This document shows positions 4,874 to 8,471 of a stretch of DNA of 47,097 nucleotides, in pieces. Below the pieces are notes generated by a model. The model saw only the letters and a program-made list of their open reading frames with translations, did no database searches and was not told the origin of the DNA. This stretch comes from an uncultured Mycoplasmatota bacterium (GTDB taxonomy: Bacteria; Bacillota_I; Bacilli_A; RF39; UBA660), in assembly GCA_946497955.1 (NCBI GenBank), contig CAMMMH010000011.1, forward strand, positions 1 to 47,097, in the 5' to 3' direction. The stretch's first letter is position 1, and each line of letters begins with the position of its first letter. The position numbers and the translations under genes are program-made.

Positions 4874-6616
4874 TTACATTTTCTCTGGTACTTCAATCGC
4901 TAGTATATCAAGTAATTCTTCATTAGTTTCTTTAACTAGTTTTGTTAATGTAAGCCAGCTTTCTCTTACCTTTTCATCACTTTCAGTTAAGATGTGATTT
5001 GCCTCATAAAATCTACTGAATAAACTTGTTAAATTATATAGGTAATCTGCTATAGAACTTAAATCTTTATTATTATAAGCTTTATGTAAAATATTATTCT
5101 TCTTCATTAATAAAAGGATAATTTCTTTTTCAGTATCTGTTGGTTTATTATAGTAATTACTATAGTCTATACTCATATCATTCGCTTTCTTTAAAATAGA
5201 TTTCATTCTAATAGTATTATATAAAATATATGGTCCTGTTTTTCCTTCTACATCAATAAATTTACTAGGCTCAAAGATATAATCTGTTGTTCTATTAGGT
5301 AAAAAGTCAGCATATTTAATCGCAGCGATAGCGATTTTTTCAGATATTTCTTCTTTATTATCCATATCTTTATTCATATGAGTAAGTATTTCTTCTTTAA
5401 CACTTTGAATTAGGCTTTTTAGAGTTGCAGCATTACCATCTCTTGTTTTAAATGGTTTACCATCAGTTCCGTTCATTGTTCCAAAGCCATAATACTCTAA
5501 AACTGTATCTTTAGAGACAAGTCCTGTTTTATATGATGCTCTAAATACTTGCTCAAAATATAAACTTTGACGCATATCTACTACATACCAAATTTCTTTA
5601 GGATTAAATCTTTTCATACGAGAAGTGATAGTTGCAAGTTCTCTTGTAGCATATAAAGTTGCTCCATTACTTTGAAGAACAATAAGTGGGGGCATAGGAG
5701 CTTTATCATCATCTTCTATTACTTCTACTATTTTCGCTCCTTCACTTTCTATTAAATAACTAGATTTTTCCATAGTATCTAGTGTTTCTTTGATATAAGG
5801 ATAAGCATCACTTTCTCCTTCCCATAAATCAAAGTCAGCATTTAATTCTTTATAAATACTTTTTATATCTTCTATAGATACTTCTTTTATCTTATTCCAT
5901 AAAGCGACATAACCTTTATTTTTACCAGATTCTAACTCAGCGGTTATTTCTCTTACTTCATTCATTATATCTTCATTTTCTTTAGCTTTATTGCTTGCAG
6001 TAGGATAGATTTCTTCTAAGTCTTTTCCTGTTATAGGTAACTCATCCCAAGTAGTTTCCTCTTTGCCACTAAAATAATTAAGATTAGGATATCTTTGTTT
6101 TAGTTCATAGATTACCATTCCAGATTGACGACCAATATCTCCAAAGTGAACATCTGATATTACTTCTTTACCAAGATATCTTGCTAATCTTTTTAAAGCT
6201 TCACCAATATTTGCACTTCTTAGATGTCCTACATGAAGAGTTTTAGCAATATTTGCACCACCATAATCGATGATAATTCTTTCTTCATTAAGTTTTTCCA
6301 CATCTTTTGTGGAATCCTTAATAACTTTTTCCACATATTCTGTTAATAACTCGTCTTTAAAACTTAAGTTAATAAAACCAGCACCTGCGATATTTATATT
6401 TTTAAAATACCCTGTTTCTTCTAGACATTTAACTAGGTCTTCTGCGATATCTCTTGGAGATTTATGCATTACTTTGGCAAGTTTCATAGCATCATTAATC
6501 TGATAATCTCCTAGTTCTTTTTTACTACTTGTTATTAATTGTACTTCATCAATGGGAATGTTATTTTCTTTAAATTTATTTAATATATCTTTTTCCACAG
6601 TATTTAAAAAATTCAT
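4874..6616 (-). CDS. argS: Arginyl-tRNA synthetase
   Basis: ArgS charges tRNA-Arg. The 580-aa class I synthetase has the N-terminal tRNA-recognition (Add-1) domain (about 1-90), the HIGH signature as HVGH (128-131) and a KMSK-region equivalent, GTDGKPFKTRDG (near 390), with the usual degenerate form. The anticodon-binding domain has the conserved C-terminal end EVPEKM. A Shine-Dalgarno (GGAGGAT) lies just before the ATG. It is the third gene of an operon with YwiB/DUF1934 and a kinase-like gene; ywiB-argS adjacency is known in Bacillus. Confidence 0.97.
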   Translation of the reverse strand: MNFLNTVEKDILNKFKENNIPIDEVQLITSSKKELGDYQINDAMKLAKVMHKSPRDIAEDLVKCLEETGYFKNINIAGAGFINLSFKDELLTEYVEKVIKDSTKDVEKLNEERIIIDYGGANIAKTLHVGHLRSANIGEALKRLARYLGKEVISDVHFGDIGRQSGMVIYELKQRYPNLNYFSGKEETTWDELPITGKDLEEIYPTASNKAKENEDIMNEVREITAELESGKNKGYVALWNKIKEVSIEDIKSIYKELNADFDLWEGESDAYPYIKETLDTMEKSSYLIESEGAKIVEVIEDDDKAPMPPLIVLQSNGATLYATRELATITSRMKRFNPKEIWYVVDMRQSLYFEQVFRASYKTGLVSKDTVLEYYGFGTMNGTDGKPFKTRDGNAATLKSLIQSVKEEILTHMNKDMDNKEEISEKIAIAAIKYADFLPNRTTDYIFEPSKFIDVEGKTGPYILYNTIRMKSILKKANDMSIDYSNYYNKPTDTEKEIILLLMKKNNILHKAYNNKDLSSIADYLYNLTSLFSRFYEANHILTESDEKVRESWLTLTKLVKETNEELLDILAIEVPEKM

Positions 6617-6628
6617 AGTATCCTCCTT

Positions 6629-7120
6629 TTATATCAAGTTTTCATCTTTTAAATAATCTTCTAAATATTTATCTTTATCTAAAATAACTAAAGGACAGTT
6701 ATAATCTTCTTCTTTATAACTCCATGTATCAAAATACCCCATAACTAGATTAATTAATTCTTGACTATTACGACGACTTTTATATCTTTCTAACAGTATT
6801 TCTTTAGAATCTTTACTTGGTAAGATAAAAGTATAATCTATATCATTTTTCTCTAATAGTTCTCTAATATCAGGTGAAGATGCTACTAAAATAATATCAT
6901 ACTTATTAGTAGATTCTTTTATTGCATTTATAAAATTATTAGGCCAGTTAGGATTAACTTTTCTATTAGGCTTTTCTTTTATTTTCTCATAATCTTCTTT
7001 TTTTATATTAGTATAATCATAGCGATAGGGACTACTTTGTAAATCTAAAACATTTGGATATTTTTTACCAACGTAGGTCTTTCCTAATCCTGAAAAGACA
7101 CTAAATACTTTCGATCTCAT
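6629..7120 (-). CDS. P-loop nucleotide kinase-like protein
   Basis: A 163-aa soluble protein that starts almost at once with a short P-loop, FSGLGKTY (GxGKT), near residues 7-14. The fold suggests adenylate- or guanylate-kinase-like NTP binding, followed by a helical region with an Arg pair (YKSRRNS) that could be a lid. The substrate is unknown. The ATG at 7120 is preferred over one four codons upstream, because GGAGGAT lies just before it and it gives an ATGA overlap with the YwiB stop. Position between ywiB and argS implies co-expression with argS. This gene is absent from the Bacillus arrangement. Confidence 0.65.
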   Translation of the reverse strand: MRSKVFSVFSGLGKTYVGKKYPNVLDLQSSPYRYDYTNIKKEDYEKIKEKPNRKVNPNWPNNFINAIKESTNKYDIILVASSPDIRELLEKNDIDYTFILPSKDSKEILLERYKSRRNSQELINLVMGYFDTWSYKEEDYNCPLVILDKDKYLEDYLKDENLI

Positions 7121-7479
7121 AGTATCCTCCATTCTACTTTAAACTCATGTTTAAAGTCATTACCATCTATTTGATATATAACTTCATAAGTTGTATTATC
7201 TTTATTTATATTAAAGGTTTTCATCGGAACAAAACCTGTTTGTTTTAAGTCTTTTAAAAACACTTCAAAATTAGTTTTTTCATTTTCCACAAATTTATAA
7301 CTTAATATAGTATCTTCTGTTTCTCGTAGCATAATATTATCATCAAGAAAGATAGTTAAAACAGCTTTATTATCTTGATACTGTATTAAGTTTTTCTTTT
7401 CATCGAATGTTCCTTTACCTTCAAAAGGTAATTCTTCATCTTTGTTTTTTATTTTCGCTTTTATAAATACATCTTTCAT
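7117..7479 (-). CDS. YwiB-like DUF1934 beta-barrel protein
   Basis: A 120-aa protein of the YwiB/DUF1934 family, small cytosolic beta-barrel proteins (calycin-like) of unknown role often encoded just upstream of argS. It is rich in beta-strand patterning and has no signal peptide. The AAAAAAGGAG Shine-Dalgarno is good. It is the first gene of the ywiB-kinase-argS operon. No promoter fits between its start and the terminator at 7511-7536, so transcription probably enters through the structured leader (7511-7632). Confidence 0.75.
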   Translation of the reverse strand: MKDVFIKAKIKNKDEELPFEGKGTFDEKKNLIQYQDNKAVLTIFLDDNIMLRETEDTILSYKFVENEKTNFEVFLKDLKQTGFVPMKTFNINKDNTTYEVIYQIDGNDFKHEFKVEWRIL

Positions 7480-7510
7480 AGATAATCTCCTTTTTTCGCA
7501 ATTAATAAAT

Positions 7511-7536
7511 AGAAAAACCTAGTCATTGACTAGGTT
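7511..7536 (-). terminator. Intrinsic terminator upstream of the ywiB-argS operon
   Basis: Minus-strand stem AACCTAGTC/GACTAGGTT (9 bp, 3-nt loop ATT in plus sense) followed by TTTTTCT. It lies between a strong promoter (7604-7632) and the ywiB start with no room for a second promoter, so it may be conditional. Confidence 0.8.
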
Positions 7537-7598
7537 ATTAATAGAAGCCGTCGCCGGCTAAACTGACTACATATAAAACATTGCTGTTTCAGTTGTCA
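7537..7598 (-). ncRNA. Structured leader RNA or small RNA (candidate attenuator/riboswitch)
   Basis: A short transcribed region between a consensus promoter and an intrinsic terminator. On the minus strand it can form AACTGA/TCAGTT (7589-7594 with 7561-7566), capped by a hairpin AACA-GCAA-TGTT with a GNRA loop. A second hairpin AGCCG-GCGA-CGGCT (7546-7559), also with a GNRA loop, follows, and then the terminator. It is noticeably GC-richer than its surroundings. No T-box (AGGGTGG) and no riboswitch class I know is recognisable. It either controls the downstream argS operon or is a free RNA of about 90 nt. Confidence 0.6.
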
Positions 7599-7603
7599 TA
7601 GTA

Positions 7604-7632
7604 ATTATAGCATATTGTAACCTATTCGTCAA
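7604..7632 (-). promoter_or_regulatory. Strong promoter of the argS-operon leader
   Basis: Minus-strand -35 TTGACG (7627-7632), 17-bp spacer, -10 TATAAT (7604-7609) with upstream TGC. The -35 overlaps the last codons of the MazF-like gene. It is one of the best promoter matches in the window. Confidence 0.8.
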
Positions 7633-8371
7633 TATTTTTTGATTTTATATAATTATTAAATTCTCTATAATCAAGTCCTGTATATACTTTTACTATATTT
7701 TTATCAATTAAATCCATAATGTTTTTATCACATTTATAATTTCCAACAATATCATACTCATTTATCTTTGGCAAAATATTTAATTTACTAATAGTTCTAA
7801 TTTGATCAATGCAAGCATATGAGAATTTATCTTTTATTTTTTTATAATATTTTAAAACTTCTTCTATTTCTTTAATTTTCTTCATGTAGTTAGGATTAAA
7901 TTCACAGTTTTCTATATCTATTTCCTTTATTTCTTTCTGTAATTCATCAACTTTATCTTGTAAAGAACTAATATAAGTATCACTTATCAATTTTCCTAAC
8001 TCTGCTGTATTTTTATGTTTTTTTGAAGTTAATGGAACAACTATTAGGGTATTATTATAAATTCCGTCTTTCTTTGATAGAGATATAGCAAAATGTTGCT
8101 CTGAAAATTCCCCTCCAATATTTACACCAAAATCTACTTTTATAATACTTCCTCTAGGATATCTCATATACTTCTTTTTAGGGTCCAAACTTATTTCATA
8201 TAATAATCTTTTACTTTTTGTACATTCCCAAGCTTCAAAGGATTTAAATTTATTTTGCATATTTAACTCTGATATTTTAAGATTGTTTTCAAATGCTTGA
8301 ACTAATCTTGATTTTTTTAAATCTTGTTTTTGAAGTTCTTTTTTATTAATTTTTTCTAATGTGGCAGTCAT
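7622..8371 (-). CDS. Elongated MazF/PemK-like protein
   Basis: A 249-aa protein with a split MazF/PemK-type core. The first part reads RYPRGSIIKVDFGVNIGGE, followed by FAISLSKKDGIYNN and VVPLTSK (about 80-128). After a charged, probably coiled insertion of about 60 residues comes SYACIDQIRTISKLN, like the MazF C-terminal strand (LDQIRTV). MazF relatives are mRNA interferases. The N-terminal 75 residues are an added helical, Lys-rich extension. No antitoxin gene lies beside it, so nuclease or toxin activity is uncertain; long solitary PemK-like proteins are known in Firmicutes. It has its own promoter (8443-8471) and is single-gene. Confidence 0.6.
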   Translation of the reverse strand: MTATLEKINKKELQKQDLKKSRLVQAFENNLKISELNMQNKFKSFEAWECTKSKRLLYEISLDPKKKYMRYPRGSIIKVDFGVNIGGEFSEQHFAISLSKKDGIYNNTLIVVPLTSKKHKNTAELGKLISDTYISSLQDKVDELQKEIKEIDIENCEFNPNYMKKIKEIEEVLKYYKKIKDKFSYACIDQIRTISKLNILPKINEYDIVGNYKCDKNIMDLIDKNIVKVYTGLDYREFNNYIKSKNIDE

Positions 8372-8442
8372 TTTATTTTCCTTTCTTAAACTATTTATTT
8401 TTTATTTATATTTAAACCCTTTGAACCCTTTTTTCGTCTTAA

Positions 8443-8471
8443 ATTATAACAAAAAAAGATTAAAGTTACAA
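8443..8471 (-). promoter_or_regulatory. Promoter of the MazF-like gene
   Basis: Minus-strand -35 TTGTAA (8466-8471), 17-bp spacer, -10 TATAAT (8443-8448), in the gap shared with the divergent PBP gene. Confidence 0.6.

Follow-up and report, generated by a model that had tools for sequence, protein, structure and literature searches.

The DNA analysed here, hereafter the window, is a 47,097-nucleotide stretch from an uncultured Mycoplasmatota bacterium (contig CAMMMH010000011.1). Our subject is a small RNA gene on its minus strand, lying between a gene for a PemK/MazF-fold protein and a ywiB-like gene, the first of the argS operon (Table 1). An earlier sequence-only reading of the locus, which gave no strand, had described a near-perfect promoter, two GNRA-capped hairpins and a strong intrinsic terminator, all of which are confirmed and lie on the minus strand. 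The promoter matches the consensus at 11 of 12 positions and scores highest within 3.5 kb, an interval in which the terminator is the sole one detected. The predicted fold of the RNA, at -27.5 kcal/mol (z -4.28; 0 of 200 shuffles equally stable), comprises P1/P2, which carries a GCAA loop, then the hairpin GCCG-GCGA-CGGC and a terminator stem of 9 bp. Between the terminator and the ywiB-like ATG (7479) lie 28 bases that hold no promoter, as had been claimed. We read the element as an independently transcribed and terminated small RNA gene, and propose that it belongs to a phage-derived two-component module with a MazF/PemK-fold endoribonuclease of the PHROG_1412 family, whose antitoxin it probably is.

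Table 1. Features of the module and the adjoining argS operon in the window.
Feature	Position	Strand	Details
PemK/MazF-fold protein, probable endoribonuclease toxin	7622..8371	-	249 aa; PHROG_1412; from Pfam, PHROG and predicted fold
Small RNA promoter	7604..7632	-	TTGACG, 17 nt, TATAAT; TG before the -10 (extended -10); overlaps last codons of PemK-family gene
Structured small RNA	7507..7598	-	~85-90 nt; start at ~7598 inferred from the -10
Hairpin 1	7564..7598	-	outer stem TGAC/GTCA + AC/GT; inner hairpin AAACA-GCAA-TGTTT, GNRA loop
Hairpin 2	7547..7558	-	GCCG-GCGA-CGGC, GNRA loop
Intrinsic terminator	7507..7536	-	AACCTAGTCAATGACTAGGTT-TTTCTATTT
Insert	7499..8426	.	928 bp; PemK-family gene and RNA gene only; defined against L009 (uninserted) and further loci of the genus
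Direct repeat CGAAAAAAGG, right copy	7489..7498	-	10 bp, flanks insert
Direct repeat CGAAAAAAGG, left copy	8427..8436	-	10 bp, flanks insert
Ancestral ywiB-argS promoter	8443..8471	-	TTGTAA-17-TATAAT; retained, now 5' of PemK-family gene
ywiB-like gene, first of argS operon	7117..7479	-	reachable now only via inserted module
argS	4874..6616	-	open reading frame list and Pfam

The protein encoded upstream of the RNA is probably an endoribonuclease toxin, with ribonuclease activity predicted from its family and fold. PemK_toxin is the sole Pfam-A model that it matches above the cut-off (1.5e-6), and residues 17-231 match the phrog_1412 profile (5e-52). His93 and Ser116 are conserved residues. 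Its AlphaFold model (mean predicted local distance difference test score 76, with residues 5-43 poor) aligns with the Bacillus subtilis MazF protein YdcE over 110 residues (Z 11.0, root-mean-square deviation 2.4). PHROGs annotates the family as 'antitoxin mazE-like', a label that does not fit the predicted MazF fold. Relatives were found in 102 phage records (Staphylococcus, Streptococcus) and six plasmids, with Bacillus plasmids among the carriers of PHROG_1412 genes; in most of the phage loci read, an integrase gene adjoins the toxin gene. Identity to the window protein is 24-36% for the PHROG_1412 relatives compared. Neither a single-protein scan for the toxin nor a pattern search for the window RNA gave a match in viral contigs. 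Nine toxin sequences aligned together proved too diverse for locus searches, and pairs were used instead. The weak toxin relatives of one further family (f7, L039-L045, seven genomes) have no such RNA gene; their loci carry a dif-like site, AACTTCGCATAATGTCCATTATGTTAA, within ~200 bp 3' of the PemK/MazF-like gene.

How the RNA gene came to lie before argS is apparent from 30 same-genus genomes with a ywiB-like gene, whose upstream DNA was read. In 24 of them the element is absent, and a TTGTAA-17-TATAAT-type promoter and ribosome-binding site stand immediately 5' of the ywiB-like gene, usually with a divergent gene beyond. The hairpin motif occurs in the other six: in two (G000, G016) it comes with both PemK-family gene and terminator, and in four (G008, G009, G013, G015) it is a short remnant with neither. 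A 14-mer around hairpin 2 has a single occurrence per genome, every time at the ywiB locus. In the window, the insert is flanked by 10-bp direct repeats and the ancestral promoter survives beyond it. The RNA gene therefore reached this locus together with the phage-type toxin gene, by insertion. In G000 and G016, ywiB-argS transcription would have to cross the RNA terminator, whether initiated at the RNA promoter or, reading through the PemK-family gene, at the ancestral one, because no promoter lies between terminator and ywiB. The earlier claim that the operon must pass the terminator is thus retained, as an inference, for the two genomes in which the insert is complete, and does not extend to the 24 relatives with a promoter of their own. 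One orphan-type locus (L002, in G008) has a ywiB-like gene 98.6% identical to that of the window, a pattern that suggests recombination at this spot upstream of ywiB. The ywiB-like protein matched no Pfam model, and we keep the name from the earlier reading purely as a label. Between it and argS lies a kinase-like gene of 167 amino acids (6629-7132), likewise without a Pfam match.

These comparisons bear directly on the sequence-only reading, which had offered an attenuator, riboswitch or small RNA before the argS operon. The small RNA is upheld, and regulation of the operon by an attenuator, riboswitch or leader peptide now appears very improbable. Such control would suit the position of the RNA, its terminator and the need for operon transcription in the window genome to cross it. 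The element is missing, however, from most of the genus and came with the PemK-family insert, and the same RNA stands beside a PemK gene and an integrase fragment at the locus of the closest toxin relative (L200). An Rfam scan of the window at gathering scores matched no family, no T-box and no riboswitch, which bears out the earlier statement that a T-box is lacking; a T-box or riboswitch leader of argS was accordingly rejected. The 10-codon open reading frame at the start of the RNA (MTTETAMFYM) contains no Arg codon, and its start codon is absent from the orphan copies.

The association between RNA gene and toxin extends well beyond this genus. The PHROG_1412 relatives read in phages and plasmids have a promoter at the toxin stop codon, then two small hairpins and a terminator, in contexts unrelated to ywiB (integrase genes, a rep plasmid). 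Under strict scoring of 18 PHROG_1412 protein clusters, 12 had the promoter, 17 the terminator and 11 both, against 6%, 19% and 3 of 183, respectively, at control gene ends. A second set was fetched after the hypothesis had been formed, by searching the window's own family for the toxin, which was found in 19 other genomes of at least 18 other genera. The same strict test, applied to either strand, was passed by 13 of the 19 loci and by 2 of 118 control ends (Fisher p 5e-12). At five of these loci (L206, L207, L210-L212), two of which pass, the hairpin array is apparently part of an opposite-strand gene. The L200 module, with the same RNA as the window, lies 3' of helix-turn-helix, ImmA/IrrE and Ltp-type lipoprotein genes and 5' of the integrase fragment. 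At the level of sequence, these data establish both that the RNA gene exists and that it is linked to the PHROG_1412 toxin.

The RNAs themselves vary between loci. In some staphylococcal phages the RNA consists of a tandemly repeated 38-nt unit, present twice in L051 and three times at L153 (1893-1990), where near-identical phages have two copies. Two similar hairpins were seen by eye at L048 and L178. Some streptococcal RNAs (L050, L054) contain a candidate H-type pseudoknot, recognised by eye only. Four Streptococcus phage loci (L047, L049, L050, L194) also carry the Spy779816 small RNA (RF02589), on the opposite strand and adjoining the integrase.

Base-pair changes support the predicted structure. 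Hairpin 2 reads GCCG-GCGA-CGGC in the window and GTCG-GCGA-CGAC in L200, a compensatory change, and the L200 terminator has a different stem with its outer pair swapped. The outer stem of hairpin 1 is TGAC/GTCA in both; the orphan copies have AAAA/GTTT, in which two pairs are changed on both sides and one is broken. Across window, L200 and orphans, four pairs are changed on both sides; the covariation score is reached by 1 of 500 shuffles, and slid registers gave no two-sided changes. Two-sided changes also occur in other RNA types, in alignments of only six sequences each. An alternative stem register within the genus, TGAA/TTYA, was nearly invariant and hence uninformative. The conservation that the earlier reading proposed to look for among relatives is mostly absent before ywiB (24 of 30 genomes), and the covariation is present with L200 and the orphans. 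That promoter, fold and terminator arose by chance is hardly credible. The region is A+T-rich, and at a loose threshold it contains roughly as many promoter-like sites as do shuffles. Against this stand the stability of the fold relative to shuffles, compensatory changes that span genera and the independent validation set.

Since an integrase lies 3' of the RNA in most phages, the RNA might instead be an integrase leader or an attachment-site structure that tracks the integrase and not PemK. We regard this as very improbable. No integrase adjoins the RNA in L052, L179, L183 or the window, and the RNA-like array that follows pemK at the five loci noted above is apparently on the opposite strand. 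Furthermore, the RNA type tracks the toxin tree: eleven types require 10 changes, the minimum, compared with at least 22 in shuffles.

Several RNAs persist without their toxin. The four same-genus remnants keep the hairpins in the ywiB 5' untranslated region, and in Streptococcus phage Javan597 the toxin is gone, save for what by eye appears to be a C-terminal remnant, while two consecutive RNA genes are kept. After these (L196, 1200-1780), a further promoter-RNA-terminator arrangement stands 5' of an abortive infection gene. An unrelated gene precedes the RNA in Javan197, and in Javan569 the phage's own RNA is followed by a further one that differs in type. Such an additional RNA, of the kind that goes with a different toxin type, is located at L047 (2497-2600). 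The orphan RNAs would fit either protection by RNA alone against elements that bear the toxin, or slow decay.

Several known systems resemble the module in part. In type III toxin-antitoxin systems (ToxIN, CptIN, TenpIN, AbiQ), toxin and RNA share one operon in which the RNA comes first (PMC5086642), with a terminator between them, and the RNA consists of repeats (PMC5086642, PMC12373285). The module shares with them a probable ribonuclease toxin, a structured and sometimes tandem-repeat RNA, an intrinsic terminator and carriage on mobile elements. It differs in that its RNA is downstream of the toxin with a promoter of its own, and in that the window toxin has PemK_toxin as its sequence match and MazF chains as its best structural ones. 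No type III toxin model (ToxN, TenpN and CptN families sought) matched in the Pfam-A scan of the window protein; the structural matches listed are MazF/Kid-type chains, with neither ToxN nor CptN among them, although a ranked list of this kind excludes nothing. In Clostridioides difficile, the prophage toxic protein AbiF is restrained by direct binding of the noncoding RNA RCd22, which has two repeated motifs (PMC12373285). The module likewise pairs a probable phage-type toxin with a noncoding RNA that would bind it; AbiF, however, is an Abi_2 protein and its RNA lies upstream and belongs to Rfam RF03085, and we found no sequence relation between the two systems. The Rfam pemK RNA (RF02913) resembles the window RNA in being a structured RNA near pemK genes, and is classed as cis-regulatory. 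Its covariance model gave no match at the window locus at E up to 10, and identity with it was rejected. Two RF02913 copies occur elsewhere in the window genome (G000:C9:21796-21876 and G000:C38:10315-10395; L056, L057), each with a sigma-like gene before it and a small MazF gene after it. MazEF/PemIK type II systems share the toxin fold; the insert differs from them in having an RNA gene and no protein antitoxin gene, with no second open reading frame of at least 60 codons in its 928 bp, a threshold below which shorter ones fall. A type I antisense RNA was rejected, the window RNA being on the same strand as the toxin gene and downstream of it; this comparison concerned cis antisense and did not extend to base-pairing in trans.

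We are now able to propose how the module may function. The strong promoter would drive surplus RNA, which would bind and silence the toxin; were transcription to stop, for example on infection or when the element is lost, decay of the RNA would free the toxin. Binding and silencing are suggested because the insert consists of a toxin-fold gene and an RNA gene alone, and because tandem repeats are found as in type III antitoxins. Neutralisation, direct binding and a role in defence or addiction are all inferred. A number of considerations weigh against an RNA antitoxin. A protein is the usual antagonist of MazF-fold toxins, and a built-in inhibitor could be formed by the N-terminal ~60 residues of this toxin, a part modelled with low confidence. 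Neither the window RNA nor that of L200 consists of repeats. The match between RNA types and toxin clades is weaker than it appears, since linkage alone makes adjacent genes co-inherit, and the typing was done by eye, with the names visible. Several loci that failed the strict automatic test were judged by eye, and one of the 19 validation loci (L208) passes the looser pattern test where inspection by eye reveals a tRNA gene and no recognisable RNA, so that it lends no support. More generally, the whole case is computational.

It is also conceivable, if rather unlikely, that the RNA acts with the PemK-family protein in another capacity: a guide, an activator, a processed ribonuclease substrate or a regulator of lysogeny genes. 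Comparable RNA genes beside the PHROG_1412 family, the position of the phage RNAs in a lysogeny region adjoining the integrase and the persistence of some RNA copies without the toxin would all be compatible with such a role. An insert of a toxin-fold gene and an RNA, with nothing else, is nevertheless the usual make-up of a toxin-antitoxin system, and the repeats resemble those of type III; these points lead us to prefer an RNA antitoxin of type III-like character.

In many prophages of Staphylococcus and Streptococcus a PHROG_1412 gene adjoins the integrase; no partner has been named for these genes. We found no earlier description of the module in the open-access literature; most subscription journals fell outside this scope, so a prior description is possible. 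Whether these modules form a widespread, undescribed toxin-antitoxin class strikes us as evenly balanced: in phages, plasmids and gut bacteria, toxins with the MazF/PemK fold would be neutralised by a downstream RNA with its own promoter, and lone RNAs would be kept as protection against incoming toxin-carrying elements. If so, a conserved RNA partner would explain how apparently lone toxin genes are tolerated, and RNA neutralisation would be extended to the MazF fold. The locus also carries a caution, that a hairpin and terminator 5' of a synthetase gene need not mean an attenuator. Finally, the orphan RNAs suggest that RNA-only immunity may operate against toxin-carrying elements.
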